The notes beneath the pieces were generated by a model. It searched no databases. It had not been told where the DNA came from and saw only the letters and a list, made by a program, of their open reading frames with translations. DNA of 64,000 bases. It comes from an uncultured Gelidibacter sp. (GTDB lineage Bacteria > Bacteroidota > Bacteroidia > Flavobacteriales > Flavobacteriaceae). The position numbers and the translations under genes are program-made. Position 1 is the first letter of the stretch. Each line of letters begins with the position of its first letter. Location: contig NZ_CANMTE010000002.1 in assembly GCF_947500795.1 (NCBI RefSeq), positions 310,001 through 374,000 on the forward strand. Direction: 5' to 3'. Shown here one piece after another: positions 22,113 through 50,116 of the stretch.

Positions 22113-22484
22113 TTAACGTTTCACAAAGGTAACATTACATTTCAAAACAGGCGTTCCGTCGTTAAAAGAAGTGTTATTTTTTATCTTCACATATTTTCCA
22201 TCTTCCTGAATAACAATATTGAATTTCAAATTGGTATTGACATTGGGGTCAACCATGGTTAAAAACTTAACATTGGATGCGGATTCTAAAAATAAGGTCT
22301 GCTGCAGGTGATTTTCCGTGAGTTCTTTGATGATTTGAAGCATCGCAACGCCAGGAGTTACAGGGAAATTAGGGAAGTGGCCTTCAAAAACCGGATGCTC
22401 TTTTTGAATTGTCACCGTTGTTTCAAAAGACTGTGCTTCATTCAATTCAGATGAGACGATAGTGTAAAAATGTTGTAAAAGCAT
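22113..22484 (-). CDS. FabZ/FabA-like hotdog dehydratase
   Basis: A 123-residue single hotdog domain. The active-site histidine is His36 in EGHFPNFPVTPG, the hallmark of 3-hydroxyacyl-ACP dehydratases. The usual acidic partner is not obvious: the position after PGVAM reads LQIIKE. In aryl polyene synthesis two dehydratase-like hotdog proteins work as a pair (ApeI and ApeP). This gene and the one at 29655-30092 are the likely counterparts, which is inference from family and context. It lies 27 bases after the LolA-like gene. Confidence 0.82.
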   Translation of the reverse strand: MLLQHFYTIVSSELNEAQSFETTVTIQKEHPVFEGHFPNFPVTPGVAMLQIIKELTENHLQQTLFLESASNVKFLTMVDPNVNTNLKFNIVIQEDGKYVKIKNNTSFNDGTPVLKCNVTFVKR

Positions 22485-22511
22485 AGCGTTTTTAGACCGT
22501 CACGTCATTTT

Positions 22512-24920: not shown

Positions 24921-26107
24921 GCCTTTGAAAAAATAAGTGTGGAACAGTTGCCACCAAATCCAAAGGAATTGGACAAGATATGCTGAACCTCTTTTTTGAC
25001 CATTGAAGTTACGGGTTGTAATCCGGTTTCAGGCATTGGCGTCTTAAAATTCAGATTTGGAAAAATAGTTTGTTCTTGTAAGGCAATGATTGAAAATACG
25101 GCCTCCACTACGCCAGCCGCGGCCAAGGTGTGCCCGGTAAATGATTTTGTAGAACTGAAAGCAGGCACATTATTTCCAAATACCCGCTGCAAGGCGACGC
25201 TTTCAGAAAGATCATTATTTGGAGTTGCAGTGCCGTGGGCGTTGATATAATTGATGTGTTCAGGGTTTAATTGCGCCAATTCTAAAGCTTTTTGCATCGC
25301 TAAAAATGCACCTTCGCCATTTTCAGAAGAGGCGGTTTGATGAAACGCATCGTTGGCATTGCCGTAGCCAGAGAGATAGGCCAATACGGTTTTTTGTTCT
25401 TTGGCAATCACTTCATCAGACTCTAACACCAAATATGCTGCGGCTTCACCAAGATTTAAACCTTTCCTGTCAGCGTCAAATGGCGCACAAAGTTCATCAG
25501 ATTGAATCATTAATGTTTTAAAACCGTTGATGGTGAATTTTGATAACGCATCCGTGCCACCTACCACTACACGATCCAATTTTCCTGCTTTAATCAATCG
25601 CGCAGCCAACATAATGGCATTGGCGGCAGATGAACATGCCGTACTGATTGTGGTTACAAATTCGGTGATATGTAGCGTATCCGCTATTTTTTGAGTGGAA
25701 TCTCCTGCGTGGTGACTTTGAATGTATTTTTGTGCCTCAGGGTCTGTTGCAAATTGTTTCAAATAAAGTTCCGTCATGTCCATTCCGCCTACAGTAGTGG
25801 CTGAGATGAACCCTGTGCGGTATTTTGAAACATCGTTTATATTGGCATCTTTAAGCGCCGCTTTTGCCGCGAAAAGTCCCAATAAGCCGGTACGTGTGTA
25901 ATTGTGGTCTTCGGGAAGTTGTAATTGAGTGGTTAAATCCGCGTTTGAAAGCGACACTTCACCAACTTTAATGTTGCCCGAATGTTTGGTTTGAATATGC
26001 TTGAGCGTGGCAATGCCACTTTTTGAAGCCAATAGAGACGACTTGCTCTCTACAACGGAATGACCAATTGCAGAAATTATGCCCATTCCGGTAATTGCAA
26101 CGCCCAT
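24917..26107 (-). CDS. FabF-type 3-oxoacyl-ACP synthase, active KS partner
   Basis: A 396-residue condensing enzyme with an intact triad: Cys158 (STACSSAAN), His291 (NAHGTAT) and His326 (SFTGHTLAAAG). It would elongate the ACP-bound polyene chain with malonyl-ACP units. The 4-base overlap with the cysteine-less partner downstream suggests a KS/CLF heterodimer (ApeO-like). It is 10 bases after the ACP gene. I assign it to the aryl polyene machinery rather than housekeeping synthesis because of context; the housekeeping fabF is not in this window. Confidence 0.9.
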   Translation of the reverse strand: MGVAITGMGIISAIGHSVVESKSSLLASKSGIATLKHIQTKHSGNIKVGEVSLSNADLTTQLQLPEDHNYTRTGLLGLFAAKAALKDANINDVSKYRTGFISATTVGGMDMTELYLKQFATDPEAQKYIQSHHAGDSTQKIADTLHITEFVTTISTACSSAANAIMLAARLIKAGKLDRVVVGGTDALSKFTINGFKTLMIQSDELCAPFDADRKGLNLGEAAAYLVLESDEVIAKEQKTVLAYLSGYGNANDAFHQTASSENGEGAFLAMQKALELAQLNPEHINYINAHGTATPNNDLSESVALQRVFGNNVPAFSSTKSFTGHTLAAAGVVEAVFSIIALQEQTIFPNLNFKTPMPETGLQPVTSMVKKEVQHILSNSFGFGGNCSTLIFSKA

Positions 26108-26117
26108 AGTTTTGGTC

Positions 26118-26375
26118 TTATTTAGCTCTTTTCTCCGTAATATAATCGGCCAATACAGCCACAGATTTAAAAATCTCTTTTCCTTCTTTTGGATCTGTCA
26201 ATTGAATACCGTAATCCTTATCTAACATCACAATTAACTCTAAAGCATCGATGGAATCTAATCCTAAACCATCCCCAAAAAGTGCATCATCATCAGCAAT
26301 ATCAGCAACTGTGAACTCTTCCAAATTCAATTGCTCTATGATCTTCTCTTTCAATTCTTGTCTTAATTCGTTCAT
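26118..26375 (-). CDS. Acyl carrier protein of the aryl polyene operon
   Basis: An 85-residue ACP. The phosphopantetheine attachment serine is Ser41 in GLGLDSIDALE, matching the DSL/DSI consensus, and the protein is acidic and helical as expected. It carries the growing polyene. It overlaps the half-ketosynthase gene by 4 bases and is followed after 10 bases by the active KS. It is the only ACP I see in this operon; E. coli-type clusters have two. Confidence 0.93.
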   Translation of the reverse strand: MNELRQELKEKIIEQLNLEEFTVADIADDDALFGDGLGLDSIDALELIVMLDKDYGIQLTDPKEGKEIFKSVAVLADYITEKRAK

Positions 26376-26989
26376 GTTTTGTATAATCTCTTAATTTCGT
26401 TAGGGCTATGTGCAATAATACCATTTTCTTCTACCAAATATAAGAAAGCCTCATAATTTTTGTCATCAAAATCGACCCATCCACACAATACTTTTTCGGC
26501 TTTTTTTCGCTTTAGAAGACTCTGTGTGTTAATCCATAAATGATCGGCATTAAAGGAGTCAAAGATAAAAAAACAATTTTCAGAATGAAGTTGGTGTTTG
26601 ATGCTAATTTCGCCCATACAAATGTTGGGCAAGGTGTAGACGAAAACGGATGGACTTGGGAAAAAATTTTCAGGGTCAGCGATGGATGCTTGGTACGTCC
26701 TGTCCGTATCTAAACTGGACGCCCTGTTTGATAATATTATTGCGATGTTATGCTCAGTCTCTGCAGATAAATCAGCGTTTTTTAAAAGGACATCTGCAGC
26801 CAGAAATGCCAACTTACTCAAATGATCCATTTTGTAAAATTTGGGATAATTGGTCTTCACATGTTTTGCAGCGCTTTTTATAAATGCTGAGAATTCCTGA
26901 TTTGGACTTGAATACAGAGGTTCCCCATCTAATAAAACACTGCTGTTTTTAATGTGGCAATAGGATGATATGTGAAAGGTTGGTTCCAA
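26372..26989 (-). CDS. N-terminal ketosynthase-like half protein, no catalytic residues
   Basis: A 205-residue protein whose sequence follows the N-terminal half of a FabF-type ketosynthase (IAIILSNRASSLDTD, then a stretch equivalent to the nucleophile loop). That loop reads ENCFFIFDSFNADHLW and lacks the Cys-Ser-Ser signature. The C-terminal half with the two histidines is absent. The gene is intact, tightly spaced (6 bases from the methyltransferase, 4-base overlap with the ACP), so it looks like a kept short form rather than a decayed pseudogene. It may act as a structural or scaffold subunit; function unknown. Confidence 0.7.
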   Translation of the reverse strand: MEPTFHISSYCHIKNSSVLLDGEPLYSSPNQEFSAFIKSAAKHVKTNYPKFYKMDHLSKLAFLAADVLLKNADLSAETEHNIAIILSNRASSLDTDRTYQASIADPENFFPSPSVFVYTLPNICMGEISIKHQLHSENCFFIFDSFNADHLWINTQSLLKRKKAEKVLCGWVDFDDKNYEAFLYLVEENGIIAHSPNEIKRLYKT

Positions 26990-26995
26990 AAATTC

Positions 26996-28057
26996 TTAAC
27001 TTTTTTTACAGACAAGCATCGTATGATATTCGCCTAATGCTAAATCTTCTTTAATCGTTAATCCAGCCTTTTCAATCAATGATTCAAATACAGTAGCAGG
27101 GTACATTTTGCTGTTGCCGTTGGCCATTACTGTAAAATATAGCGAGGTGGCTTCTAGGATGAATTTTGACATCGGGAATTCCTGACGGTCTGTAAAAGTT
27201 TCGATGATGATCAATTCTGTGTGTGCATCCATAGAAGCGACACAAGTGGATAGAATTGTCAAGATTTCATCTTCAGAAAAACAATCTAAAAATTGACTCA
27301 TCCAAATGACATCCGCACCCGTTGGAATTTGAGGATTTGGTTTTAACCAGTCCATTTCCTGTCCGCTGATGCGGTTTCCAAAACCTGCATCATTAATATT
27401 TTTTAAAGCTTTATTCAATTGTCCAGGCAAATCAATAATTTTCACCTGGATATTTTCATCATAATTAAAACATTGCAAGGCAAACTTTCCGGTATTTCCA
27501 CCAATATCGAACAGAAGTTTTGGTTGATTTTTAAACACGCGTTTTAAAGCCTCTTCAAAAATACCATCCGAATAAAAATGGTCAAACTCAAACCAAGATT
27601 GCTGTTCTTTTGGCGTTAATTGCGAAAGACCTTCATAAATCGTTTTCCATTCTCCCAACTCTTTTAAGCCTGATGGTTCTCCAGTTTTGATAGCCTCATC
27701 GAGATGAAACAAGCCTTTGTAACAAATGTCGTGCGTAAAGTTGAGGTTGACGTTGACATCTTTACTGTAATTTAAAAAATAGCCTGTTTTGGTAAGTTCA
27801 TAGATGCCATTTTCGGATTTACTGACTACGCCCGCACTTTCTGAAAATTCTAATAATACACCAAGACCGTAGCGACTGATGGAAAGTTGCTCAGAAATAG
27901 CGTCAATAGTAACGCCTCCGTTATGGCGACTATCGAAAATCAGGTCAAAAACGCCCAGTTTTTTTAAGGTAACTGACGATTGGAATATAAAAGGGGCGAA
28001 GGCTATTTTTTGTGCTTCCAGCAAAGCATCGGCGGCTCTAAGTTCTTTTTTCGACAT
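26996..28057 (-). CDS. SAM-dependent methyltransferase with N-terminal winged-helix domain
   Basis: A 353-residue protein with the layout of plant-type O-methyltransferases. The first ~90 residues look like a dimerisation winged helix (KLGVFDLIFDSR, ISRYGLGVLLEF). The Rossmann SAM site is LFDIGGNTGKFAL (about 180). Later segments such as GADVIWMSQFLDCF match acceptor-side motifs. In aryl polyenes the aryl head is often methylated, so O- or C-methylation of the head group is the best guess. It sits 7 bases after a ketosynthase gene and 6 before the half-KS gene. Confidence 0.85.
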   Translation of the reverse strand: MSKKELRAADALLEAQKIAFAPFIFQSSVTLKKLGVFDLIFDSRHNGGVTIDAISEQLSISRYGLGVLLEFSESAGVVSKSENGIYELTKTGYFLNYSKDVNVNLNFTHDICYKGLFHLDEAIKTGEPSGLKELGEWKTIYEGLSQLTPKEQQSWFEFDHFYSDGIFEEALKRVFKNQPKLLFDIGGNTGKFALQCFNYDENIQVKIIDLPGQLNKALKNINDAGFGNRISGQEMDWLKPNPQIPTGADVIWMSQFLDCFSEDEILTILSTCVASMDAHTELIIIETFTDRQEFPMSKFILEATSLYFTVMANGNSKMYPATVFESLIEKAGLTIKEDLALGEYHTMLVCKKS

Positions 28058-28064
28058 AAAGGGG

Positions 28065-29210
28065 TTATGTTAATGTTCTGAAGAGCGCCACAGTGTTGCA
28101 GCCCCCAAATCCAGATGCGGTTTTTAAAAATGTTCGTAATTCTTTTGATGCGGTTTCTTTGATGATGTTCAGTGGTTTGGTGACTCCCAAAGTTTCAAAT
28201 CCCGCAGAGGCAATTAAAGTATTATGGTGTAAAGATTGCATACCAATGATCGTTTCCAATAACCCAGAAGCACCCAAAGTATGACCGAAATAGCCTTTTA
28301 AACTATTTAATGGCGCATGCTCTAATCCTAATCTGTTGAAGGCGATGGCTTCCATTTCATCATTAAATAACGTGGCTGTGCCGTGGGCTGAAATATAATC
28401 GATGGTGTGGGAATCGATGTTTGCTTCCGCTAACGCCGATTTTATACTTCGGTATAATCCTTCGCCAGTGCGCGACGGTCCAGAAATATGATTAGCATCG
28501 TTACAACTCGCTTCACCCAAAATTTCCACAGTGTCTTCAGAATGATTGTTTTTATTTGAAGTTACCAATACACTGGCCGCCACTTCGCCTAAATTAATAC
28601 CAACGCGGTTGGCATCATAAGGTTTGCTGGGAGCGTCACTTAAGGCATGGAACGAGTTAAATCCAGAAATCACAAAATCAGAAACCAAGTCTCCGGCAAC
28701 CACGAAAACTTGATCATAAATGCCTTCTTGAATGTAGCGTTTCGCAATCGCAATTGATAAAATGCCAGAAACACAAGCGTTGGAAATTACAATCGCTTCA
28801 TTTTTAAAGCCGAAATAGTTTTGGATTATTTTTCCTAATTCGCTCAGATACGCACGTTCTTGTGGAAATTGGCTCTGAGTATTTAGCACGTCGATATTTC
28901 CTTTGGTGGTAGAAATAATAAGTCCGACACGATCAGAGAGGTCAATTCCTGAAGCTTTTATAGTTTTAGAAAGTGATAACAGCAGCATCTTTTCTAAACG
29001 GGTGAAATCCTTGTTAGGTTCTAAAATTTGAAATGCAGAATTCAAGGTTTCGGTTGGGATGACGGCTCCAAAAAATGGTTTGTAAAAACGGGATGCATCG
29101 TCAACTAATTGAATGGCGCGTTTGCCTTGTTTGAGATTTTCAAAAACGGTCGCGCTGTCAAACCCTAATGACGACGTAATATTATGGTATGACATATAGC
29201 ACTTAGTCAT
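28065..29210 (-). CDS. FabF-type ketosynthase (ApeR-like)
   Basis: A 381-residue condensing enzyme with all three catalytic residues: Cys146 (SNACVSGIL), His276 (SAHGTAT) and His310 (YFGHTLGASG). It is separate from the KS/CLF pair. In aryl polyene clusters a third, stand-alone ketosynthase (ApeR) is thought to start chain elongation, which would be a fitting role, but this is by analogy. Its start overlaps the thioesterase gene by 8 bases. Confidence 0.9.
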   Translation of the reverse strand: MTKCYMSYHNITSSLGFDSATVFENLKQGKRAIQLVDDASRFYKPFFGAVIPTETLNSAFQILEPNKDFTRLEKMLLLSLSKTIKASGIDLSDRVGLIISTTKGNIDVLNTQSQFPQERAYLSELGKIIQNYFGFKNEAIVISNACVSGILSIAIAKRYIQEGIYDQVFVVAGDLVSDFVISGFNSFHALSDAPSKPYDANRVGINLGEVAASVLVTSNKNNHSEDTVEILGEASCNDANHISGPSRTGEGLYRSIKSALAEANIDSHTIDYISAHGTATLFNDEMEAIAFNRLGLEHAPLNSLKGYFGHTLGASGLLETIIGMQSLHHNTLIASAGFETLGVTKPLNIIKETASKELRTFLKTASGFGGCNTVALFRTLT

Positions 29211-29652
29211 GCAATAATCCGTGTTTTTCTTTCCAATTTTTATAAAATTCTGGCAGATTTAATGCCATATCATTCGCCTCAAAATTGGTAAACACCTGAG
29301 TGGTTTCGCCGGTGCACACTATCTTGCCTTTTTCGTTTGTAATTGAATAAGTGAACATCAATTTTGCCGCCCGCGTATTGACATAAGTCGTTTCAATGGT
29401 CGCTACTTCGCCATAACGTAACGGTAAGTGGTGTTCTAAGACTGTTTTCACAATAGGGGTTGCATATCCATACGTTTTTACATCCAGATACGTCAAGTCA
29501 AAAGCCCTACCAAAGGCTTCACGGCCTTCTTCAAAATACTTGACGTAGTGTCCATGCCAAACAATATTTAAAGAATCGACCTCACTAAACCGCACTCGGA
29601 TTTGATGTGAAATTTTCAATGAAGGCACCTCTTGTTTTTCTGACTTTCTCAT
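29203..29652 (-). CDS. Acyl-CoA/ACP thioesterase (4HBT hotdog family)
   Basis: A 149-residue hotdog protein. The catalytic-type Asp26 is in RFSEVDSLNIVWHGHY, which matches the 4-hydroxybenzoyl-CoA thioesterase/YbgC signature. Members cleave acyl thioesters; here it could release or edit the polyene chain (ApeK-like). It starts 2 bases after the dehydratase gene stop and overlaps the ketosynthase gene by 8 bases. The substrate is not predictable from sequence. Confidence 0.87.
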   Translation of the reverse strand: MRKSEKQEVPSLKISHQIRVRFSEVDSLNIVWHGHYVKYFEEGREAFGRAFDLTYLDVKTYGYATPIVKTVLEHHLPLRYGEVATIETTYVNTRAAKLMFTYSITNEKGKIVCTGETTQVFTNFEANDMALNLPEFYKNWKEKHGLLHD

Positions 29653-29654
29653 TT

Positions 29655-30092
29655 TTATTCTTTGAGCACGAGATTCATTTCGGCATTTGCAATTTCTATG
29701 TTAGCACTAAAGATAGAAAGTTTTACCGACGTCATATGCATCATATCGTAGACAATAGTGACTTCGGTTTTTAAAATCTCATTTATGGTGGGTAATGAAT
29801 GGACGTGTAATTTTTTAATAGAGGCGATAAAACCTTCTTTTACAGGTTGATTATCTGATAAATTTTTAAATCCGGTGTATAAGGCAGCGGCTTGCGCCAT
29901 ATGTTCGATTAGTCCGGTTTCTGAAAACTCATCATTCGCTACGAATAGATTGTTCTTTAAAATTGTAAAACCTGCGGTCGCTTTTCCATCGCTAAAGTCT
30001 AAAAGTGAATCGACCATAATCATGGGTTCACGATGTGGAAGCAATTTTTTTATGTCCTCTAAATCGGTAATCGGAATTTTAGGTGTTTTCAT
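29655..30092 (-). CDS. ApeP-like 3-hydroxyacyl-ACP dehydratase
   Basis: A 145-residue hotdog protein. I chose the ATG at 30092, which leaves a 14-base overlap with the acyltransferase gene; an in-frame ATG at 30113 would add seven residues. Seen: LLPHREPMIMVDSLL near the N terminus and LIEHMAQAAAL in the central helix, both typical of the ApeP family of dehydratases. It probably pairs with the other hotdog protein (22113-22484) to dehydrate 3-hydroxyacyl-ACP intermediates of the polyene. Confidence 0.83.
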   Translation of the reverse strand: MKTPKIPITDLEDIKKLLPHREPMIMVDSLLDFSDGKATAGFTILKNNLFVANDEFSETGLIEHMAQAAALYTGFKNLSDNQPVKEGFIASIKKLHVHSLPTINEILKTEVTIVYDMMHMTSVKLSIFSANIEIANAEMNLVLKE

Positions 30093-30963
30093 TTTTATCG
30101 TTCCAAAAATCATAAAAATTGAACCATTGCAACGGATATTTCTTAACCATTTGTTCTACGTTTTCGGCGTATTTTTTCAAAAGGTCGTTCATATCGCCTT
30201 TCTTATAATCAATCCATTTGGCGTATAAATGATAATGTTTTTTCGGTTCTCGCATCACATACACAAAAAGGACAGGAACATTTAGTCGGCTAGCCAAATA
30301 AAAAGGGCCTATGGGGAATTTTGCTTTTTTTCCCAATAGAGTTTCCTCCAAACATTTGGTGTTATCCATATACCGATCTCCAGCAATGCATATAATTCTG
30401 TTGTTGGCTAATGCCGCATTAATTTCAAAAATATGCGATAAATCGTCCTTTACAACAATAAAATGTGTCTCTTTTTTAACATATTGCCCTAGATAGTCCT
30501 TGATTTCTTGATGGTCTTGATCTGTAATGACAATACTTATAGAATCCTTGGATAATCTTTCCTTGAAAAAATACTGCGCCAATTCAAAATTACCAATATG
30601 TGCACTGATAAGGATGCCGCCTTTGTTCATTGCAAGTACTTCAGCGATTTTAACTTCGCCGTCAAATTCGTAGGTATAATCGTTTCTGAGGCCTGCGGAG
30701 ATCGCTATTTTGTCGATTAAAGTCTGCCCAAACGTATAATAGGTTTTATAAATGCTGATCATGGTTTTAAAACGTGAATAGTGCAATCGTTTTCTGAAAT
30801 AGTAACGTAGACCACGCACATTTTTCCCTGAAAATAAGCAGAAATAAGGTACAGGAAGGTGCATTAATGCATAGGCGGCATTAATTCCGAAATTCTTTAT
30901 AAAGAATATGAACACCTTAAAACCGAAAACTGTGCCTCTCGATTTTCCATCCCATTCTGCCAT
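30079..30963 (-). CDS. LpxL/HtrB-family lysophospholipid acyltransferase
   Basis: A 294-residue membrane-associated acyltransferase. The HX4E active site is His122-Glu127 (SAHIGNFEL), and the N-terminal third is hydrophobic. In lipid A synthesis this family adds secondary acyl chains. In aryl polyene clusters a cluster-specific member is proposed to join the polyene to a lipid or glycerol anchor. That assignment is from context, since this gene is between fabG-like and dehydratase genes rather than in a lipid A locus. Confidence 0.87.
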   Translation of the reverse strand: MAEWDGKSRGTVFGFKVFIFFIKNFGINAAYALMHLPVPYFCLFSGKNVRGLRYYFRKRLHYSRFKTMISIYKTYYTFGQTLIDKIAISAGLRNDYTYEFDGEVKIAEVLAMNKGGILISAHIGNFELAQYFFKERLSKDSISIVITDQDHQEIKDYLGQYVKKETHFIVVKDDLSHIFEINAALANNRIICIAGDRYMDNTKCLEETLLGKKAKFPIGPFYLASRLNVPVLFVYVMREPKKHYHLYAKWIDYKKGDMNDLLKKYAENVEQMVKKYPLQWFNFYDFWNDKNENT

Positions 30964-31051
30964 TATAATTGTGATGTTTAGGCTTGAAGTAAGCGCATTA
31001 ATAAAGCGACAAATTTACGCGAATTTTTCGGTTCTAAAATTCGAGTATTGT

Positions 31052-31792
31052 TTAGTGAATACCACCAGTAATTCCGATAACTTCACCTGTAATGTAGGAT
31101 GCATTTTTTGAAGCCAGAAAAGCGACCAAATGCGCCACTTCTTCAGGTTTTCCGAACCTGTTAGCAGGAATCATTTTTTTAAGAGATGCTTCATCTAATT
31201 CTTCCGTCATATCAGTTTTAATAAATCCGGGAGCCACCGCGTTTACGGTGACGTTACGTTTGGCAACTTCTTGGGATAATGATTTTGTTGCAGCAATGAC
31301 AGCGCCTTTTGCAGCCGAATAATTTGTCTGACCAGAAACACCTTTTAATCCAGAAATCGACACCATATTAATGATACGACCATAACGGTTTAGCAACATT
31401 TTTTCGATAAGTAGATTGGTGACGTTGAAGAAACCATTTAAACTAGTGTTGATGACGTCATTCCATTCTTGAGGTTTCATCCACATAAATAGTCCGTCTT
31501 TAGTGATGCCGGCGTTATTTACCAACACTTCAATAATGGCGTCAGGTTGCTGTTCATGCCAGGTATTTAAGGCCGTTTGAACACTTTCGAAATTAGACAC
31601 ATCAAATTGGATGATTTGCCCAGAGCCTCCAGCGGCTTCCACCGACTTTAAGGTTTGAAGCGCAGCTTCTTTATTGGTGCTGTAATTGATGAGAATCTCA
31701 TACTCTGAATCTTTGGCGAGTTGAATGCAAATCGCTTTGCCGATGCCTCGTGAGCCTCCGGTAATCAGAGCGAATTTTTTTGATGTAGACAT
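31052..31792 (-). CDS. FabG-like 3-ketoacyl-ACP reductase
   Basis: A 246-residue classical short-chain dehydrogenase. The cofactor loop is TGGSRGIGKA (about 11-20), NNAG is at 92-95, and the catalytic set Ser145, Tyr158 and Lys162 is present with the FabG spacing. It would reduce the 3-keto group of the growing polyene with NADPH (ApeQ-like). It follows the ammonia-lyase by 42 bases and precedes the acyltransferase by 88 bases, so it is part of the same operon. Confidence 0.92.
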   Translation of the reverse strand: MSTSKKFALITGGSRGIGKAICIQLAKDSEYEILINYSTNKEAALQTLKSVEAAGGSGQIIQFDVSNFESVQTALNTWHEQQPDAIIEVLVNNAGITKDGLFMWMKPQEWNDVINTSLNGFFNVTNLLIEKMLLNRYGRIINMVSISGLKGVSGQTNYSAAKGAVIAATKSLSQEVAKRNVTVNAVAPGFIKTDMTEELDEASLKKMIPANRFGKPEEVAHLVAFLASKNASYITGEVIGITGGIH

Positions 31793-31834
31793 AGATTAAG
31801 TTTTTTTTGATTCAGAATAGAACTACTGGAAGTA

Positions 31835-33361
31835 TCAGCCCTTTTGATTCATGAGATATGCTTTAACCGCATTCACGTAAGGATACATCACAACATCTTC
31901 TTTAAATACTGGAACAATCGCGCGAATGGCGTCATAAATTGCTCTTGTTTTTGAAGAGACAGCATCTTTTACTTCTAAATATTCAATAGCCTGAACGATA
32001 GTGATTAATTCGATCGCCAACACTTCGAACGTGTTTTCAATCACTTTTTTAGTGATTAAAGCAGCATTGGTGCCCATGCTTACGATATCCTGATTGTCAT
32101 TATTGTTGGGAATACTGTGCACATACATTGGGTTAGACAACATTTGATTTTCGGCAGTCGTTGAGGTCGCTGTAAATTGCACGCCTTGCATGCCGAAATT
32201 CAAACCAAGTTTCCCTAAGTTGACAAATGGAGGTAAAATGTTATTAAGACTAGGATTGAGTAAATAATTTAACTGGCGTTCGGCAAGCATTGACGTCTTG
32301 GTGACTACCAGTTTTAACTTATCCATTTCTAAAGACACATAATCGCCGTGAAAATTGCCGCCATGATAAACATTTTTATTTTTGACATCCACAATAGGAT
32401 TGTCGTTAGCAGAATTCGCTTCTTCAATTAGAATCGTTTCTACCTGATTGAGCGTATCTAAAACGGGACCTAAAATTTGCGGGACACAACGTAAGGAGTA
32501 ATATTCCTGGACTTTATCTTCAAAAACAGTGACATTTTGCACGGCATTATATAAATGGTGCTCGCGTTTTTTTATGAGTGTGCTATCTTTTAAATGGGCA
32601 CGCATGAGTTCAGCAATCTCGCGTTGGCCATTATGTTTTTTGGTTTGATTTAATTCAAAAGAAAGATGATCGTCATATGCTTTGACAATTTCGTTGATGG
32701 CCGATGAAGCAGTAATTGTCCAATTCAGAAGTTGACGCGTGTAAATGGTGTTGACAATACCAACCCCAGTCATTACTGAAGTTCCGTTCATTAGGGCTAA
32801 ACCTTCACGGAGATGAATAGAAATTGGTTGTAGGTTTTCTGTTTTGAAAACGTCCTCGGTGTTATGCTTTTCACCTTTATACATGACTTCACCTTCTCCA
32901 ATCAAAACAAGTGCTAAATGAGCTAGTTGTACCAAATCGCCACTCGCACCAACGCCTCCATGTTCATAAATTACGGGTGTAATATCTTTATTGATCAATT
33001 GTGCCATCAATTCGACCACCGATTTATGGACGCCGGAATTTCCTAAGCACAATGTGTTCAGTCGCGCTAACATGGCAGCTTTTACGTATAATGAAGGAAT
33101 GGGATTTCCTGTTCCAGAGGCATGACTTCTGATTAAGTTGTACTGAAGTTGTTGGCGCTCTGAATCGTCAATTTTATATTGTGCCATTGGGCCAAAACCA
33201 GTATTGACGCCATAAATGATTTTGTTTTCTGAAAAGGTTTTTAAAAATTCGAAGCTTTTTTCAACCGTTTCAAGAACATTTTTGTCAATTTGTATGGATT
33301 GCTGATCAAATAAAACGTGTTTGAAATCATCAATTCCTAGGGTTCCGTTAAGTGTGACCAT
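31835..33361 (-). CDS. Aromatic amino acid ammonia-lyase, probable tyrosine ammonia-lyase
   Basis: A 508-residue HAL/PAL/TAL enzyme. The MIO prosthetic group would form from Ala139-Ser140-Gly141 (GVGASGDLV), and Tyr50 (YGVNTGFG) is the conserved loop tyrosine. Substrate specificity is not settled by the selectivity pair alone: residues 79-80 are Ser-His, as in histidine ammonia-lyases. However, the characterised tyrosine ammonia-lyase of Flavobacterium johnsoniae has the same pair, by my recollection, and is similar overall. Deaminating tyrosine gives 4-coumarate, the known starter of aryl polyenes. It is the first gene of the operon, about 70 bases downstream of a candidate minus-strand promoter. 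Confidence 0.9.
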   Translation of the reverse strand: MVTLNGTLGIDDFKHVLFDQQSIQIDKNVLETVEKSFEFLKTFSENKIIYGVNTGFGPMAQYKIDDSERQQLQYNLIRSHASGTGNPIPSLYVKAAMLARLNTLCLGNSGVHKSVVELMAQLINKDITPVIYEHGGVGASGDLVQLAHLALVLIGEGEVMYKGEKHNTEDVFKTENLQPISIHLREGLALMNGTSVMTGVGIVNTIYTRQLLNWTITASSAINEIVKAYDDHLSFELNQTKKHNGQREIAELMRAHLKDSTLIKKREHHLYNAVQNVTVFEDKVQEYYSLRCVPQILGPVLDTLNQVETILIEEANSANDNPIVDVKNKNVYHGGNFHGDYVSLEMDKLKLVVTKTSMLAERQLNYLLNPSLNNILPPFVNLGKLGLNFGMQGVQFTATSTTAENQMLSNPMYVHSIPNNNDNQDIVSMGTNAALITKKVIENTFEVLAIELITIVQAIEYLEVKDAVSSKTRAIYDAIRAIVPVFKEDVVMYPYVNAVKAYLMNQKG

Positions 33362-43612: not shown

Positions 43613-44749
43613 CTGAAGAATCTAGAAAACACATTTGATGTACTGATTATCGGGGGTGGATTGGCTGGACTTTCGGCGGCAATTCATCTTCATAAAAAGG
43701 GTATAAGTGTCGGACTCATTGAGAAAAATGACTATCCTAAACATAAGGTTTGTGGGGAGTATATTTCTAATGAGGTCCTTCCATATTTGAATTATTTAGG
43801 AGTCGACGTCTTTAGTTTGGGAGCGAAGAAAATTACAAAGTTTCAAGTATCTAGCGTTAAAAGTAAACTCCTGACAGCAGATTTGCCATTGGGCGGATTT
43901 GGAATCAGTCGTTACTCTTTAGATGAAGCGCTTTTTTTAGAGGCTAAAGCAGTAGGTGTGCAAGTGATTCAAGATACAGTAATGGAAGTACGGTTTTCAG
44001 ATGATAAATTTATGATAGAGACTAAAGATAATGGGAGTTATGTCGCGAAAATTACTATTGGCGCTTATGGTAAACGCACAAATTTAGACGTCAAATTAAA
44101 CCGTGATTTTATCAAAAATAAATCACCTTATTTAGCTGTCAAAATCCATGTAAAAGGTGATTTTCCTGAGGATGTAGTGGCCTTACATAATTTTGAAGGC
44201 GGTTATTGTGGCGTTTCTAAAGTAGAAGATAATAGCATTAATCTCTGTTATATTACGAATTTGGAAGCGTTTAAAAAGTTTAAGGATATTGACGAATTTC
44301 AGCAACAAGTAATGTTCAAAAACACCCATCTAAAATCCATATTTGAAAATTCCATACCTGTCTTTGACGCACCGTTAAGTATCAGCCAGATTTCTTTTGA
44401 CAGGAAATCGCCTGTGGAAGCGCATATGCTTATGTGTGGCGATTCCGCAGGAATGATCCATCCTCTGTGTGGTAATGGCATGAGTATGGCTATTAGAAGT
44501 GCTCAAATAGCTTCAGAACTTGTTCTTGACTATTTTGAAAATGCCATATCTCGAAGTAATCTAGAGATAGCTTACGCTAAAGCTTGGAATCAACACTTTA
44601 AGAACCGCTTGAAAGTGGGTCATATCGTTGCTAAGGTATTCGACCATCAGAACTTATCGGAAACAGCGCTTAGTGCACTTAAAAAAATGCCGTTTCTGAT
44701 GCCTTTTATTATCAAGCAAACCCACGGCAAACCAATGCAAATAAGATGA
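43613..44749 (+). CDS. FAD-dependent oxidoreductase, geranylgeranyl reductase-like, first gene of type III PKS locus
   Basis: A 378-residue flavoprotein if read from the CTG at 43613. The FAD loop is IIGGGLAGLSAA, and it begins before the first canonical in-frame start (TTG at 43661), so that TTG would remove part of the FAD site. Between the upstream TAA at 43604 and 43661 there is no ATG, GTG or TTG in this frame. Either an unusual CTG start or a one-base error in the A-run at 43626-43629 (which would connect to TTG 43609) must be assumed. Family motif PKHKVCGEYIS and MCGDSAGMIHPLCGNGM are intact. It overlaps the methyltransferase gene by 4 bases. In Streptomyces srs-type loci a flavoprotein hydroxylates the type III PKS product, which suggests a similar role. 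Confidence 0.75.
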   Translation: MKNLENTFDVLIIGGGLAGLSAAIHLHKKGISVGLIEKNDYPKHKVCGEYISNEVLPYLNYLGVDVFSLGAKKITKFQVSSVKSKLLTADLPLGGFGISRYSLDEALFLEAKAVGVQVIQDTVMEVRFSDDKFMIETKDNGSYVAKITIGAYGKRTNLDVKLNRDFIKNKSPYLAVKIHVKGDFPEDVVALHNFEGGYCGVSKVEDNSINLCYITNLEAFKKFKDIDEFQQQVMFKNTHLKSIFENSIPVFDAPLSISQISFDRKSPVEAHMLMCGDSAGMIHPLCGNGMSMAIRSAQIASELVLDYFENAISRSNLEIAYAKAWNQHFKNRLKVGHIVAKVFDHQNLSETALSALKKMPFLMPFIIKQTHGKPMQIR

Positions 44750-45468
44750 GTTTATTAGTAGACACTAGACATCGGACTGACGCGGAAGAACTTATGGATG
44801 ATTTTTCCATTCAGGGTCCTATGCTTACCGATGCGCTTGATAAGTTAGCAACAATAAATAAGTTTTTGGGTGGGAATGCGGTGACTATAAACGGACTTAA
44901 AACACTCTTAAAGCACCATCCAAAAGAGACTCCTATCACAATTATCGATTTGGGTTGTGGGGGCGGTGATATCTTGAGAGCGATTGCAGATTTTGGTAAA
45001 AATGAAGGATATCAGTTTCTGTTGATTGGAATCGACGCCAATAAAAATGCCACAGCCTATGCTAAAACCTTATCTTCAGCCTATAAAAATATTGAGTTTC
45101 TCGATATCGATGTTTTTTCTGAACCCTTTAAACAGATGCAATATGATGTTGCGATCAGCACATTATTTCTGCATCACTTTAAGGAGCGAGAACTGAATGA
45201 ACTCTTAAAACATCTCTTAGAAACTGCAACGTTAGGAGTCGTGGTCAACGATTTACACAGACACCGATTGGCGTATTATTTGTTCAAACTGATTACGATT
45301 CCGGTACACAATAAAATGATTATTGAAGACGGATTAATCTCCGTTTTGCGAGGATTTAAAAGAAAAGAGCTCGTTGCCTTAGCATCACAATTACATTGCA
45401 ACTACCAACTCAAATGGAAATGGGCATTTAGATACCAGTGGATTTTGAGAAGGAGGTGCGAGGATTGA
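44746..45468 (+). CDS. SAM-dependent methyltransferase of the type III PKS locus
   Basis: A 240-residue class I methyltransferase. The SAM loop is IIDLGCGGGDILR (about 66-78), then LLIGIDAN for the acidic residue and FLDIDVF. Its translation is coupled to the flavoprotein gene by an ATGA overlap. Together with the flavoprotein and the type III PKS it forms a trio matching the srsB-srsC-srsA set for methylated phenolic lipids. Methylation of a resorcinol or quinone is therefore a reasonable inference. Confidence 0.83.
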   Translation: MSLLVDTRHRTDAEELMDDFSIQGPMLTDALDKLATINKFLGGNAVTINGLKTLLKHHPKETPITIIDLGCGGGDILRAIADFGKNEGYQFLLIGIDANKNATAYAKTLSSAYKNIEFLDIDVFSEPFKQMQYDVAISTLFLHHFKERELNELLKHLLETATLGVVVNDLHRHRLAYYLFKLITIPVHNKMIIEDGLISVLRGFKRKELVALASQLHCNYQLKWKWAFRYQWILRRRCED

Positions 45469-45572
45469 GGTTTTGGGTTTGAGGTGAATGGAAAAGACAT
45501 TGAAGTTATATAAAGATTTGAGATTTCTCCGTATTAGAGTATCGGGGCAACTATTTAAAAATATCCATTAAA

Positions 45573-45599
45573 ATCAGCAGTATCAGCGTCATCAGCGTT
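45573..45599 (+). repeat. Three 9-base tandem repeats (ATCAGCnnn)
   Basis: ATCAGCAGT, ATCAGCGTC and ATCAGCGTT follow one another without gaps, 20 bases before the type III PKS ATG. Repeats of this look occur between genes in Flavobacteriaceae genomes. They could be a regulator site or an untranslated-leader element, but no function is known to me. Confidence 0.6.
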
Positions 45600-45618
45600 C
45601 CATAAAAGTATCATTATC

Positions 45619-46671
45619 ATGAAAGTAAAAATTACGGCCGTCGCCAAGCAATTACCAAAATATTCTAGAAACACTAAGGATATCATTCCCTATTTAAACG
45701 TGTGGTTGGAGGGTCAGGAAGAACGTTTTCAGCGTAAAGTGAACAAGTTATTCGAAAATGCAGGTGTGGACAGGCGGTATTCCATTATGGATGCAGAAGA
45801 AGTATTTTTGAATAGCTCTTTCGAAGAAAAAAATGACATTTACACCCGCGAGGTGATCAAATTAGGTGAACAAGCTTTGTTAAAATCCTTGGAAAAAGCC
45901 AAGCTTCAGCCTACAGATATTGATTATATTATTACGGTCAGTTGCACCGGCATTATGATTCCCTCTTTGGACGCTTATCTCATCAATCGGTTAAAAATGC
46001 GTCAGGATATCATCCGCTTGCCGGTGACAGAAATGGGTTGTGCCGCCGGAGTTTCGGGCATTATATATGCCAAGAATTTTTTAAAGGCGAATCCCAACAA
46101 ACGCGCTGTAGTCATTGCGGTAGAATCGCCCACCGCGACCTTCCAACTCGACGATTATTCCATGGCAAATATTGTAAGTGCTGCTATTTTTGGTGACGGC
46201 GCCGCAAGCGTGATCTTGTCTTCTTATGAAGCGGATTCAGGTCCGGGAATTCTCGACGAAGCCATGTACCATTTTTACGATGCGGAACAAATGATGGGGT
46301 TTAAGCTTGTTAATACGGGATTGCAAATGATTTTGGATAAAGCAGTCCCCGAAACCATTTCAAACCATTTTCCTAAAATTGTTTATCCGTTCTTAGAGCG
46401 GAATCAGATGCATATTGACGATGTTGACCATCTCATATTTCATCCTGGCGGTAAAAAAATAGTACAAACGGTGGAGGAACTGTTCGGTAGTTTGGGAAAA
46501 AACATTGATGATACCAAAGAAGTCCTTAAATTGTATGGCAACATGAGTAGCGCGACCGTGCTCTATGTGTTGGAACGTTTTATGGAACGTGACTTGCCGA
46601 AAGGCGATATCGGACTGATGTTAAGTTTTGGACCGGGTTTTTCAGCGCAACGGATTTTGTTACAATGGTAG
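45619..46671 (+). CDS. Type III polyketide synthase
   Basis: A 350-residue chalcone-synthase-family enzyme. The catalytic triad is complete: Cys141 (TEMGCAAGVSG), His275 (IFHPGGKK) and Asn308 (YGNMSSAT). Cys109 (VSCTG) is also conserved but is not the nucleophile. Bacterial members extend fatty acyl thioesters with malonyl-CoA to give alkylresorcinols or alkylpyrones. It is preceded by a 150-base gap and followed by chain-building enzymes on the same strand. The acyl donor may therefore be the ACP encoded at 49284, as in the ArsA/ArsD-ArsB hand-off in Azotobacter; that is inference. Confidence 0.93.
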   Translation: MKVKITAVAKQLPKYSRNTKDIIPYLNVWLEGQEERFQRKVNKLFENAGVDRRYSIMDAEEVFLNSSFEEKNDIYTREVIKLGEQALLKSLEKAKLQPTDIDYIITVSCTGIMIPSLDAYLINRLKMRQDIIRLPVTEMGCAAGVSGIIYAKNFLKANPNKRAVVIAVESPTATFQLDDYSMANIVSAAIFGDGAASVILSSYEADSGPGILDEAMYHFYDAEQMMGFKLVNTGLQMILDKAVPETISNHFPKIVYPFLERNQMHIDDVDHLIFHPGGKKIVQTVEELFGSLGKNIDDTKEVLKLYGNMSSATVLYVLERFMERDLPKGDIGLMLSFGPGFSAQRILLQW

Positions 46672-46710
46672 ATTACAAGAGCAGCGTTAGCATGGCAATT
46701 TAGTTTGGAT

Positions 46711-47508
46711 ATGAAAAAGGATTTTGAAGATAAAAATTATTGGGCGCTTATTTTGGGTGGCTCCAGTGGATTGGGTTTGGCCACGGCTAAGACTTTAGCC
46801 AATCACGGTATGAATATTTGTATCATCCACCGTAACCCACGCGCCCAGGAAGAGCGCATTGAAGCGGAATTCCATAGTATCCGCAACACCGGCGTGGAGT
46901 TTAAAGCCTTTAATGCCGATGCTTTTAGAGTTGAAAAGCGCAACGAATTGGTGTCAGAAATAAGCAAGCTTTGTGGTTCAGAAGGGCGCATTCGGACATT
47001 GGTGCATAGCGTAGCCAAAGGCAATTTAAAACCGATGCTTTCAGAAGATCAACCTAGATTACAAACTGACGATTTTAATTTGACCATCAATGCAATGGCC
47101 ATTAGTTTATACGATTGGACGCAAGCCATTTTTGAAGCAAAACTATTTGCTGACGATGCCAGAATCATCAGTTTTACGAGTGAAGGTAATACCAAAGCTT
47201 GGAAGAATTATGCCGCAGTTTCCGCAGCGAAAGTGACCTTAGAAGCGATTACCAGAAATATTGCGTTAGAATTTGCACCCTTAGGAATTCGGGCCAATTG
47301 CATTCAAGCGGGTATAACAGACACGGCATCTTTGAGAATGATTCCCGGCAGTGAAGCACTTAAAACGCATGCCCTAAAGAGAAATCCGTTCAAACGCTTA
47401 ACCACTCCAGAGGATGTAGCCAATGCGGTGTATCTGCTGAGTAAAGACGAGGCGCGTTGGATTAATGGCTGTGTGATTCCTGTGGATGGCGGCGAACATA
47501 TCTCTTAA
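46711..47508 (+). CDS. FabI-like SDR reductase (probable enoyl-ACP reductase)
   Basis: A 265-residue short-chain dehydrogenase. I chose ATG 46711 over the TTG at 46705. The catalytic pair is Tyr167 and Lys174, spaced Y-x6-K, the hallmark of FabI rather than the Y-x3-K of FabG (NYAAVSAAK). LVHSVAKG (about 97-104) matches the FabI VHS motif and GGSSGLGLA the cofactor loop. It would reduce the enoyl-ACP made by the following dehydratase. A ketoreductase role cannot be ruled out, since no FabG is present in this locus. Confidence 0.84.
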   Translation: MKKDFEDKNYWALILGGSSGLGLATAKTLANHGMNICIIHRNPRAQEERIEAEFHSIRNTGVEFKAFNADAFRVEKRNELVSEISKLCGSEGRIRTLVHSVAKGNLKPMLSEDQPRLQTDDFNLTINAMAISLYDWTQAIFEAKLFADDARIISFTSEGNTKAWKNYAAVSAAKVTLEAITRNIALEFAPLGIRANCIQAGITDTASLRMIPGSEALKTHALKRNPFKRLTTPEDVANAVYLLSKDEARWINGCVIPVDGGEHIS

Positions 47509-47535
47509 AAGCTTTAAATTAATCTCAGAGATTTT

Positions 47536-47991
47536 ATGATAATGGATACAGAGCACATTCTTAAACTTTTGCCCTACAAACCGCCGTTTCTTTTCGTGGA
47601 TGGACTTTCCAGAATTTCAGAAGCAGGGGCGACCGGGTACTATACCTTTAAAGAAACGGAATATTTTTATAAAGGACATTTTAGAAATCAACCTGTTACT
47701 CCTGGCGTCATTTTAACCGAGTGTATGGCGCAAATTGGTGTGGTATGCTTAGGAATCTATCTGTTAAAGGATCAAATTACTGAGAATTTTAAGCCAGAAA
47801 TCGCCTTAACCTCAAGCTTAGTGGATTTTTATCTGCCTGTTTTTCCTGGCGAAACCGTAACTGTTGTTTCAGAAAAAGTGGTTTTCCGATTTCATAAATT
47901 AAAATGTAACGTCAAACTTTTCAATCAAAAAGAGGAATTGGTTTGCAGAGGCACCATTTCAGGAATGTTAAAACCTAAAGGGAATGACTAG
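47536..47991 (+). CDS. FabZ-like 3-hydroxyacyl-ACP dehydratase
   Basis: A 151-residue hotdog protein. The active site is His48 (GHFRNQPVTPGV) with Glu62 (LTECMAQ), both as in FabZ. The N-terminal signature is PYKPPFLFVD where FabZ usually has PHRYPFLLVD. Two ATGs (47536 and 47542) are possible. It lies 27 bases after the FabI-like gene and overlaps the ketosynthase by 8 bases, so the chain-building genes form one operon. Confidence 0.87.
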   Translation: MIMDTEHILKLLPYKPPFLFVDGLSRISEAGATGYYTFKETEYFYKGHFRNQPVTPGVILTECMAQIGVVCLGIYLLKDQITENFKPEIALTSSLVDFYLPVFPGETVTVVSEKVVFRFHKLKCNVKLFNQKEELVCRGTISGMLKPKGND

Positions 47992-49252
47992 AGTTGTAAT
48001 TACGGGTATGGGGGTTGTAGCACCAAACGGTGTGGGCTTGGAAGCGTTTACTAAAGCGATTAAGTTTGGGACATCCGGCATTGCCTATCATGACAATTTA
48101 AAAGCGGCTAATTTTTCATGCTGCATTGGTGGAATTCCGCAGGTTTCAGAAGAAAAAAAACTGGAATACCTCACACCATTACAACTCCGCGGATTTAATA
48201 GCTCAGGGATTTTATATGGGTGTATGGCAGGAATGGATGCTTGGAAGGATGCCGGTTTAGAAATTGATGCGGAGAGTGATTTGGATTATGACAGCGGCTG
48301 TGTGTTTGGAACTGGAACTTCGGGGGTTGATAAATTCCGCGAAGCGATTTATAAAGTGGATGCCGGTGAAGTGAAACGCATGGGCAGTACGGTGGTCTTA
48401 CAAACTATGGCCAGTGGCATCAGCGCATATCTTGGTGGGATTCTCGGATTGGGAAATCAGGTGACTACCAATTCGTCCGCATGCACCACTGGAACGGAAG
48501 CTATTTTGATGGGATTTGAACGGATCAAAAACGGTCAGGCCAAACGAATGTTAGTGGGGAGTTGTAGTGATGATGGACCTTATATTTGGGGCGGATTTGA
48601 CGCCATGCGGGTCATGACTTATAAACATAATGATTCCCCGCAGGGAGGATCGCGACCAATGAGCGCGTCGGCAAGCGGATTTGTACCCGGAAGTGGCGCC
48701 GGTGCCATGGTGTTAGAATCATTAGAAAGCGCCTTAAAACGTGGCGCTACCATTTATGCAGAGGTCTTGGGAGGTCATGTCAACTCGGGAGGCCAACGCA
48801 ACGGCGGCACATTGACAGCTCCTAATGCGGAAGCTGTGCAACGCTGCATTGTAAGTGCTATTAAAAATTCAGGAATTGAAGCCAGCGCGATTGATACGAT
48901 TAACGGCCATTTGACCGCCACTTCAAAAGACAGTCTCGAAATTGAAAACTGGACCAAAGCCTTGGGTCGTGAAGGTGCTGATTTTCCGTATATCAACTCT
49001 TTAAAATCGATGGTGGGCCATTGCCTTGCAGCAGCGGGAAGCATTGAAAGTGTGGCAACAGTTTTGCAATTGAAGGAGCAGTTTGTGTTCCCAAACATTA
49101 ATTGTGACGATGTGCATTCTGAAATTTTAGAGCTCATTGCTGACGAAAAGATTCCGAAACAAATGCTCAATAAACCGTTGAACATAGCCGCAAAAGCGAG
49201 CTTTGGTTTTGGTGATGTTAACGCTTGTATTATCTTTAAGACTTATAACTAA
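47984..49252 (+). CDS. FabF-type ketosynthase of the type III PKS locus
   Basis: A 422-residue ketosynthase with Cys167 (NSSACTTGTEA), His309 and His346 (MVGHCLAAAG). The first histidine lies in NGHLTAT, unlike the usual HGTxT, so this is a divergent group. The protein would extend the acyl chain on the ACP encoded just after it. Overlap of 8 bases with the dehydratase gene supports coupled expression. Confidence 0.88.
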   Translation: MTRVVITGMGVVAPNGVGLEAFTKAIKFGTSGIAYHDNLKAANFSCCIGGIPQVSEEKKLEYLTPLQLRGFNSSGILYGCMAGMDAWKDAGLEIDAESDLDYDSGCVFGTGTSGVDKFREAIYKVDAGEVKRMGSTVVLQTMASGISAYLGGILGLGNQVTTNSSACTTGTEAILMGFERIKNGQAKRMLVGSCSDDGPYIWGGFDAMRVMTYKHNDSPQGGSRPMSASASGFVPGSGAGAMVLESLESALKRGATIYAEVLGGHVNSGGQRNGGTLTAPNAEAVQRCIVSAIKNSGIEASAIDTINGHLTATSKDSLEIENWTKALGREGADFPYINSLKSMVGHCLAAAGSIESVATVLQLKEQFVFPNINCDDVHSEILELIADEKIPKQMLNKPLNIAAKASFGFGDVNACIIFKTYN

Positions 49253-49283
49253 ATCTTTATACAAATTCTAGAGCCTACAATTT

Positions 49284-49535
49284 ATGAAAAACGAAGATTT
49301 AATTGCCAAATTGAAAACTATTGTCCAACCTTATGTGCAGGATGAAGACGCTTTTAATAATTTGTCAGAAGAAACAACTTTTGTGGGCGATTTAAAAATA
49401 AATTCCGCGAATTTGGTGGACATTATTTTAGATGTGGAGGACGAATTTGACATCCGCATCGAGAATGAGGAAATGGAACAAATGCTTTCCGTAAAAGCAG
49501 CTATGGCCATTGTCAATTCTAAAATCGCTTCCTAA
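49284..49535 (+). CDS. Acyl carrier protein of the type III PKS locus
   Basis: An 83-residue ACP. The probable phosphopantetheine serine is Ser41 in LKINSANLVD, an Asn-Ser form in place of the usual Asp-Ser. The rest is acidic and helical as expected. Its stop overlaps the start of the phosphopantetheinyl transferase by one base (TAATG), so the two are made together. Confidence 0.88.
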   Translation: MKNEDLIAKLKTIVQPYVQDEDAFNNLSEETTFVGDLKINSANLVDIILDVEDEFDIRIENEEMEQMLSVKAAMAIVNSKIAS

Positions 49536-50116
49536 TGATTGGTAACGATATTGTCGATTTAGAATTTGCGAAACGCAATTCCCGTTGGCAAGAACAACGC
49601 TTTTTAAACAAGTTATTCACTATTGAAGAACAGGATTTCATTCGTTCTGACGACCAGCAATTTCAAAGTATTTGGCGCTTATGGACGATGAAGGAAAGTG
49701 TTTATAAAATCACATCAAGAGCTGAGGGAAAGATCCGGTTTAATCCAACCGATTTTAAATGTATTGTGTTAGATTCTAATCAAGGACACGTCATTTATAA
49801 AAATCATTCTATAGCAACAGCTACAACAACGAATCTGAATTTTGTCCAGACTACGGCGTGTTTAAATCCGCAATGGATTTCAAAAATGTTTCAATGTTCA
49901 AGTTTAGATTATCCTACCCAACATTCTGAAAGTGTCCAACAGGCTATAAAAGCCTATGCTGCTTATAAAAATGTAGTTGACAAGTCTGTCGCAGTTATCA
50001 AAAATAGTAGAGGAATTCCGCAATTTTATATGAACGGGCATTTACAACCCGAACAGCTTTCTCTTACACATCATGGCCTTTACGGCGCGTTTGCGATTAG
50101 CGTGACAGAATCTTAA
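49535..50116 (+). CDS. 4'-phosphopantetheinyl transferase (Sfp/AcpS superfamily)
   Basis: A 193-residue enzyme that attaches phosphopantetheine to ACP. Motifs: GNDIVDLE at the N terminus (Asp5, Asp8) and WTMKESVYK (about 50-58), both family-typical. Its direct coupling to the locus ACP points to a dedicated activation enzyme, which is unusual for a type III PKS locus. It might also act on the aryl polyene ACP. It converges on the ABC gene with a 20-base overlap. Confidence 0.9.
   Translation: MIGNDIVDLEFAKRNSRWQEQRFLNKLFTIEEQDFIRSDDQQFQSIWRLWTMKESVYKITSRAEGKIRFNPTDFKCIVLDSNQGHVIYKNHSIATATTTNLNFVQTTACLNPQWISKMFQCSSLDYPTQHSESVQQAIKAYAAYKNVVDKSVAVIKNSRGIPQFYMNGHLQPEQLSLTHHGLYGAFAISVTES

Follow-up and report, generated by a model that had tools for sequence, protein, structure and literature searches.

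A type III polyketide synthase cluster with type II chain-building genes in Gelidibacter and other Flavobacteriaceae

A cluster of eight genes around a type III polyketide synthase (PKS) was analysed in a 64,000-nucleotide stretch of DNA (the window) from an uncultured Gelidibacter sp. of the Flavobacteriaceae (contig NZ_CANMTE010000002.1, positions 310,001 to 374,000; positions given below are those of the window unless a locus is named). An earlier note, made from the letters of the window, had described a type III PKS locus carrying its own type II chain-building enzymes, with an acyl carrier protein (ACP) activated by a phosphopantetheinyl transferase (PPTase) encoded next to it, and this interpretation is partly supported. 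The cluster is real, widespread and conserved. In the reading favoured here, to which a probability of about 0.62 is given, the type II genes would form a dedicated maker of acyl-ACP that feeds the type III PKS, and the putative product is a methylated and hydroxylated lipid of the alkylresorcinol or quinone type.

Gene content and conservation of the cluster

Scans with Pfam and NCBIfam found a flavoprotein (FAD), a methyltransferase (MT), the PKS, an enoyl-ACP reductase (ER), a dehydratase (DH), a ketosynthase (KS), the ACP and the PPTase in this order on the plus strand at 43613-50116, which confirms the observation of eight closely packed genes on one strand. Residue counts, here and below, refer to those rows, 24 to 70 per family, that grouped with the family in question and not to every locus; the loci covered number 68.

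43613..44749, plus strand: FAD-dependent oxidoreductase, GG-reductase/UbiH-like (Pfam FAD_binding_3; NCBIfam GG-red-SF below cut-off)
44746..45468, plus strand: class I S-adenosylmethionine (SAM) methyltransferase (Pfam Methyltransf_25/31/11; D-x-G motif in 68/68)
45619..46671, plus strand: type III PKS, Cys141-His275-Asn308 (Pfam Chal_sti_synt_N and _C)
46705..47508, plus strand: FabL-like enoyl-ACP reductase of the SDR family, Y169-x6-K176 (NCBIfam/Pfam; start TTG at 46705 or ATG at 46711)
47536..47991, plus strand: FabZ-like 3-hydroxyacyl-ACP dehydratase, His48 and Glu62 (Pfam, NCBIfam; both residues in 64/64)
47984..49252, plus strand: FabF-like ketosynthase, Cys167-His309-His346, GHLTAT (Pfam, NCBIfam; residues in 64/64)
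49284..49535, plus strand: acyl carrier protein, INSA at the phosphopantetheine site, Ser41 (NCBIfam ACP models, below cut-off)
49535..50116, plus strand: phosphopantetheinyl transferase, a lineage-specific part (Pfam ACPS; one of two in the genome)

The genes overlap at the FAD/MT, DH/KS and ACP/PPTase junctions, and the remaining junctions measure at most 33 bp (39 bp upstream of the ER if the ATG start is used), except for a gap of about 150 bp between MT and PKS. The 3' end of the PPTase gene is overlapped by an ABC gene that lies downstream in convergent orientation. ER, DH, KS and ACP are encoded by separate genes, so the chain-building part does consist of discrete type II enzymes, as had been proposed. 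The eight genes are not a complete type II fatty acid synthase (FAS), because neither a ketoreductase nor a malonyl transferase nor a KS III was found among them with Pfam and NCBIfam.

Conservation was assessed in a family sample of 199 genomes from 198 genera, two of the genomes being from the window's own genus, with thresholds of E < 1e-100 for the PKS and E up to 1e-95 for the KS. A PKS orthologue, 56-97% identical, was present in 63 genomes (in one of them split into two frames) and the KS in 62, all within the 63 PKS carriers; the KS never occurred alone (Fisher p 2.5e-51 for the co-occurrence, uncorrected for kinship). FAD and MT accompany the PKS in 63/63 loci and the ER lies beside it in 55. 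The order FAD-MT-PKS-(ER)-DH-KS-ACP is kept on one strand in 58 of the 63 loci, the five exceptions being L036, which lies at a contig end, the two split loci L060 and L062, L083, which has no DH, and L038; the genes missing from L036 were found on another contig (L199). Given this co-occurrence, and an order kept across dozens of genera, the set is not a chance association. The comparison of neighbourhoods across the family, which the earlier note had suggested, thus upholds the gene order but leaves ER and PPTase as optional parts. Three clusters look interrupted or decayed: L094, where the PKS is split in two frames, L083, where the flavoprotein is split and the DH lacking, and L038, where a long gap precedes a partial DH.

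The PPTase was found at the cluster in 20 of the 63 genomes, 19 times linked and once, in G066, on the genome's other contig. These 20 genomes have two or three PPTase matches each in total; among the 43 without a cluster PPTase, 28 have one match and 15 have two. Such counts point to a part that was added in some lineages, and a PPTase of its own was rejected as a defining part of the cluster. Where it is absent a general enzyme must load the ACP, if the ACP is loaded at all. A genome scan returned at least 566 relatives of the PKS; among the best 80 named loci, which are those nearest to the query and overlap in part with the sample of 199 genomes, 71 have the full order, 71 the ER and 72 the PPTase.

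The phylum sample comprised 345 genomes, in which a PKS of the window type was defined by at least 64% identity. It was present in 32 genomes, and the KS in 32/32 of these. Three of the carriers lie outside the family, spread over two families that belong to other orders. The set is complete in L177, and complete except for the ER in L178 and L179. Within one genus of this sample (g127), 16 genomes have both PKS and KS, six have neither and none has only one of the two. In the family sample, FAD-MT-PKS-ER stands apart from DH-KS-ACP in two genera (genomes G190 and G144), with both blocks retained.

No extra gene family common to all loci was found in the neighbourhood comparison. Neighbours limited to certain lineages are a YceI-family gene (f16), an MMPL gene (f41) and a family with no Pfam match (f20). 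In some lineages the MMPL exporter gene follows the PPTase (L041:13496-15733) and in some the YceI-family gene precedes the flavoprotein (L040:11954-12472), and both hint at a lipid product.

Sequence and fold of the encoded proteins

The two Chal_sti_synt domains of the window PKS score 78.5 and 69.7 bits in Pfam, both above the cut-off of 27, and the protein is 97% identical to the PKSs of Gelidibacter salicanalis IC162 and G. sediminis. The Cys-His-Asn triad, which had been noted as intact in the window, is present in 68 of the 69 PKS rows, the remaining row being a fragment. With 29.9 bits against a cut-off of 550 for the model NF053539, the protein is not a DarB. The residue after MG, which we provisionally take to be the ArsB Trp281 site (resorcinol or pyrone), is Phe in 68/69 rows, Trp in Pks11 and Leu in CylI.

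A structure model of the PKS, for which the alignment held 22 rows of the window PKS group and seven others, had a pLDDT of 90.8. The closest fold was that of Pks11 of Mycobacterium tuberculosis (Z 49.9, rmsd 1.6 over 344 residues, 31% identity), whose structure entry title names methyl-branched alkylpyrones, followed by CylI (Z about 47, 28% identity). Lower Z scores were obtained for THNS (45.3), the type I/III hybrid Steely1 (45.1), PKS18 (44.7) and plant enzymes (about 43-44). ArsC and germicidin synthase were not among the 50 fold matches listed, and no weight is placed on this absence. Likeness of the modelled fold to Pks11 and CylI is no proof of substrate.

The reductase, called FabI-like in the earlier note, is a predicted enoyl reductase of the SDR family; its best NCBIfam model is FabL, at 152.8 bits far below the cut-off of 328; the catalytic Tyr and Lys are kept in 57/59 and 58/59 homologues. 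The KS scores 265 bits, below the FabF cut-off of 494 (NCBIfam), and is single, with no chain-length-factor partner in the eight-gene set. At the position where ketosynthases usually have HGTGT it carries GHLTAT, of which the L is found in 63/64 rows and the other positions in 64/64. The ACP has INSA where the usual motif is DSL; I, N and S occur in 59/59 homologues and the fourth position is A in 57 and S in two. Since both motifs are fixed across homologues, ACP and KS appear to be specialised proteins and not spare housekeeping copies.

Genome-wide, six matches to the ketosynthase family, three to the FabA/FabZ family, three to ACP (TIGR00517) and two to PPTases were counted, of which the PKS cluster contributes one each. 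Two KS, one DH and one ACP come from another type II cluster within the window. A further KS and ACP lie about 1 kb apart on contig C2, and a DH lies within a 468-residue frame on contig C1; together they are probably the housekeeping set. The other PPTase is found on contig C6 among genes that look unrelated by eye. On the minus strand of the window, at 17608-33361 and about 10 kb from the PKS cluster, is a flexirubin/aryl-polyene-like cluster with an aromatic amino acid lyase, ketosynthases, a FabA-like DH, an ACP, LolA, an MMPL exporter, a glycosyltransferase, an O-methyltransferase-like protein and a lipid-A-type acyltransferase.

Other type III PKS loci and other partners of the chain-building genes

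Thirty-two loci of other type III PKSs served as controls, with about 9 kb on each side where the contig allows, drawn from 31 of the 71 further PKS carriers in the phylum sample and from one genome of the family sample. None of these 32 loci contained a match to the KS, DH or ACP profiles of this cluster; a related KS is held elsewhere in the genome in two control genomes (G294 and G272). An ICMT-family methyltransferase adjoins the PKS in 15 control loci (six by Pfam, the rest by a profile from those six). SrsB is an ICMT-type methyltransferase and the window MT is class I; Pfam found no second methyltransferase in the set, which has only the class I MT before the PKS and hence no adjacent ICMT family. 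MT and FAD homologous to the window pair occur in nine control loci, one FAD match (L212) being weak, and a UbiA prenyltransferase adjoins in five of the nine (by Pfam for L196, by similarity to L196 for the others). The remaining eight have neither the ICMT methyltransferase nor the MT-FAD pair. The occurrence of the MT-FAD pair beside other PKSs, the UbiA loci included, looks as if the source of the tail had been swapped. The five PKS-MT-FAD-UbiA loci (L196, L200, L201, L202 and L204) are possible loci for a polyketide-derived prenylquinone.

A FabH-rooted tree of 58 rows was made from PKSs of the phylum, covering 25 of the 68 loci of the window PKS group, with long branches in the outgroup and in several rows. 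Three PKS groups each fall on one side of a branch, and the groups follow the type of neighbourhood. The group nearest to the window PKS group differs between a quick tree, which had a wrong outgroup, and the careful FabH-rooted tree.

Four genomes of the phylum contain a KS 48-54% identical to that of the window without a PKS of the window type. L216 (7976-18984) has ER-DH-KS-ACP-PPTase with the motif INSAN, divergent from the flexirubin genes darB, darG and darH, which pass the NCBIfam cut-offs; the module thus recurs next to another ring-forming enzyme, DarB. In L217 (8697-13846), the neighbours of ER-DH-KS-ACP encode a GNAT-like protein (by Pfam) and a glycosyltransferase, and L218 (7225-11589) and L219 (7606-11856) have DH-KS-ACP with a DSF-type ACP, no ER there and neighbours that resemble those of L217 by eye. 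The glycosyltransferase of these three loci has a weak likeness to HpnB/HpnI, and the pathway is perhaps one for a lipid. All four genomes carry some type III PKS elsewhere, a weak pattern as two of them are of one genus and three of one family.

Proposed pathway, alternatives and known systems

The data show which genes are present, that their catalytic residues are kept, that PKS and KS are conserved together and persist when apart, and that the module also stands next to other partners; from this we infer the hand-off of acyl-ACP, the type of ring, the order of tailoring, the product and its role. DH, KS and the specialised ACP, usually with the ER and sometimes with the PPTase, would be a dedicated lipid-tail module that builds an acyl chain on its own ACP, with steps such as FabG, FabD and FabH supplied by housekeeping synthesis; as the set has no ketoreductase, a housekeeping ketoreductase must help. 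The PKS would take the acyl-ACP as starter, add malonyl units and close a ring of the resorcinol (or pyrone) type. MT and flavoprotein may then methylate and hydroxylate this ring; the outcome would be an envelope lipid, either an alkylhydroquinone or quinone or a methylated phenol. Only the analogy with MT-flavoprotein operons makes a resorcinol or quinone head more likely than a pyrone, and the product of the package is probably a membrane-type phenol or quinone lipid. The feeder reading is favoured because it accounts for the co-occurrence, for the persistence of both parts where they lie apart, for the special nature of the ACP and for the way in which, beside the same tailoring pair, a prenyltransferase seems to have been exchanged for a chain-making set. 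The dedicated feeder of the earlier note holds insofar as the KS accompanies the PKS in 62 of the 63 family genomes and in all phylum carriers, and DH-KS-ACP is kept when unlinked, but the set as encoded has no ketoreductase of its own.

Several observations besides this absence weigh against a dedicated feeder. The ER is lacking beside the PKS in 8/63 loci, so that either chain saturation varies or some other reductase acts, and the PPTase is absent from the cluster in 43/63. L083 retains PKS, KS and ACP without a DH. G138 has the PKS and no KS that passes the threshold; its locus, L038, has about 9 kb between the ER and a partial DH near the contig end, where decay and incomplete assembly are indistinguishable. 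Pairwise identities of PKS and KS correlate moderately (r 0.75). The occurrence of the KS in four genomes without this PKS, three times beside GNAT-like and glycosyltransferase genes, means that other products can draw on the module as well. Nor did the planctomycetal work settle what the flavoprotein does (PMC10896814).

The main rival, which we regard as unlikely, is that the PKS uses housekeeping acyl-CoA or acyl-ACP and that the type II set supplies another acyl group for attachment at a later stage, for instance through an ester bond; the genes would then be conserved for a shared final molecule and not for a starter hand-off. That four genomes have the module next to different partners agrees with this, as do the flexirubin precedent, in which a polyene acid is esterified to a dialkylresorcinol according to PMC3992019, and the statement in PMC6274091 that type III PKSs generally take CoA thioesters. 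It fits less well that the eight genes include no acyltransferase or ligase and that no further gene family is found in all loci, that the closest folds are long-chain enzymes, and that the set is minimal and adjacent.

Improbable to a further degree is a flow in the opposite direction, with the PKS making a small aromatic acid from malonyl-CoA; once this acid is attached to the ACP, KS, DH and ER would elongate it to an aryl-alkyl or aryl-polyene chain. An optional ER (55/63) would suit polyenes, and the PKS ring in the MT-FAD-UbiA loci would presumably need no fatty starter, but a ligase to load the aryl acid is missing from the set, and the nearest folds, Pks11 and CylI, act on aliphatic chains. 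The flexirubin-like cluster of the window also speaks against it: that set elongates an aryl starter, and it comprises two full ketosynthases and a dedicated lyase that makes the aryl unit. A vertically inherited chromosomal block of genes from unrelated pathways was already disfavoured and is very improbable. In its favour, the flanks (accC side and ABC-POP side) are often shared in the Gelidibacter-Winogradskyella lineage; against it, the flanks vary between lineages around a constant core set, PKS and KS are either both present or both absent within one genus (16/6/0), and both parts are retained unlinked in G190 and G144.

A wider form of the feeder reading can be put forward tentatively. 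The DH-KS-ACP trio, to which ER and PPTase may be added and in which the ACP carries INSA and the KS GHLTAT, might be a portable acyl-ACP maker that plugs into different ring formers of the FabH superfamily, the type III PKS in Flavobacteriaceae and DarB in the flexirubin cluster; with the PKS it might yield a polyketide lipoquinone, the ring of which is decorated by the MT-FAD pair that elsewhere in Bacteroidota acts beside UbiA. If so, one phylum would tail one kind of quinone in two ways. The comparison yields a definite pathway that is open to testing. A stand-alone feeder of type II enzymes would extend the list of known routes by which type III PKSs obtain their starters, and a polyketide quinone in Bacteroidota becomes possible.

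Parts of such a pathway are found in known systems. In Azotobacter, arsABCD likewise tie dedicated fatty acid synthesis genes to a type III PKS; to judge from a reference title in PMC6274091, their feeder is of the type I FAS class, whereas the window has separate ER, DH, KS and ACP genes and, in addition, MT and flavoprotein. The ACP domain of ArsA is reported to hand acyl groups directly to ArsB and ArsC (PMC6274091), and CylI, Gcs/SCO7671 and ArsB/C are described as accepting acyl-ACP (PMC8086630, PMC6274091). In the cylindrocyclophane pathway CylI closes an ACP-bound chain as a resorcinol, as outlined in PMC8086630; the feeder there consists of a free-standing ACP, CylB, and type I PKSs, and that of the window would be a type II set. 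A type III PKS with MT and oxidoreductase is shared with srs, pkqABC, hidABC and the planctomycetal operon, but chain-building genes are not described for these in the relevant passages of PMC9927152, PMC10896814 and PMC8086630, and the window PKS forms its own group in the Bacteroidota-phylum tree. Alkylresorcinols and quinones are the compounds with which such operons have been linked (PMC10896814, PMC9927152). When the Gimesia maris genes were expressed, a singly, probably C-methylated product was reportedly obtained (PMC10896814), cyanobacterial hierridins are given as O-methylated (PMC8086630), and actinobacterial quinones have been proposed as alternate electron carriers (PMC9927152). 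The flexirubin/dialkylresorcinol genes darB, darG and darH are adjoined by the ER-DH-KS-ACP-PPTase module in L216, but their ring former is DarB, outside of which the window PKS falls. The PKS and ICMT pairs (L182 and 14 others) have the phylum and a type III PKS with a methyltransferase in common with the window, and differ in that no type II genes were seen, the methyltransferase is of another family and the PKS belongs to a separate group. The koreenceine system described in PMC6498172 is unrelated.

In a survey of Flavobacteriaceae and related bacteria that covered 2,680 genomes (PMC10734526), type III PKS (T3PKS) clusters make up 10.74% of the predicted biosynthetic clusters, and 0.39 per strain is listed for Flavobacteriaceae in the first column of Table 4 of PMC7440613. 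A 'T3pks-arylpolyene' cluster is mentioned for Aequorivita in PMC6139392, which states, without showing the data, that the PKS of this cluster and the one from Zobellia galactanivorans share 69% identity. T3PKS clusters are also noted for Winogradskyella bathintestinalis (PMC7615552) and for Winogradskyella sp. APC 3343 (PMC10456417), which has the same strain number as W. bathintestinalis. In the passages of the open-access literature searched, no product is reported for this kind of cluster, and the surveys list T3PKS clusters without one.

The flavoprotein gene of the window has no ATG and probably starts with CTG at 43613. In eight of ten related loci compared, L097-L104, CTG, TTG or GTG is found at the same codon, with CTG in four Gelidibacter loci (the window among them) and TTG or GTG in L100-L104; the two relatives that do not share this feature are L126 and L145. 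The non-ATG start is perhaps conserved.

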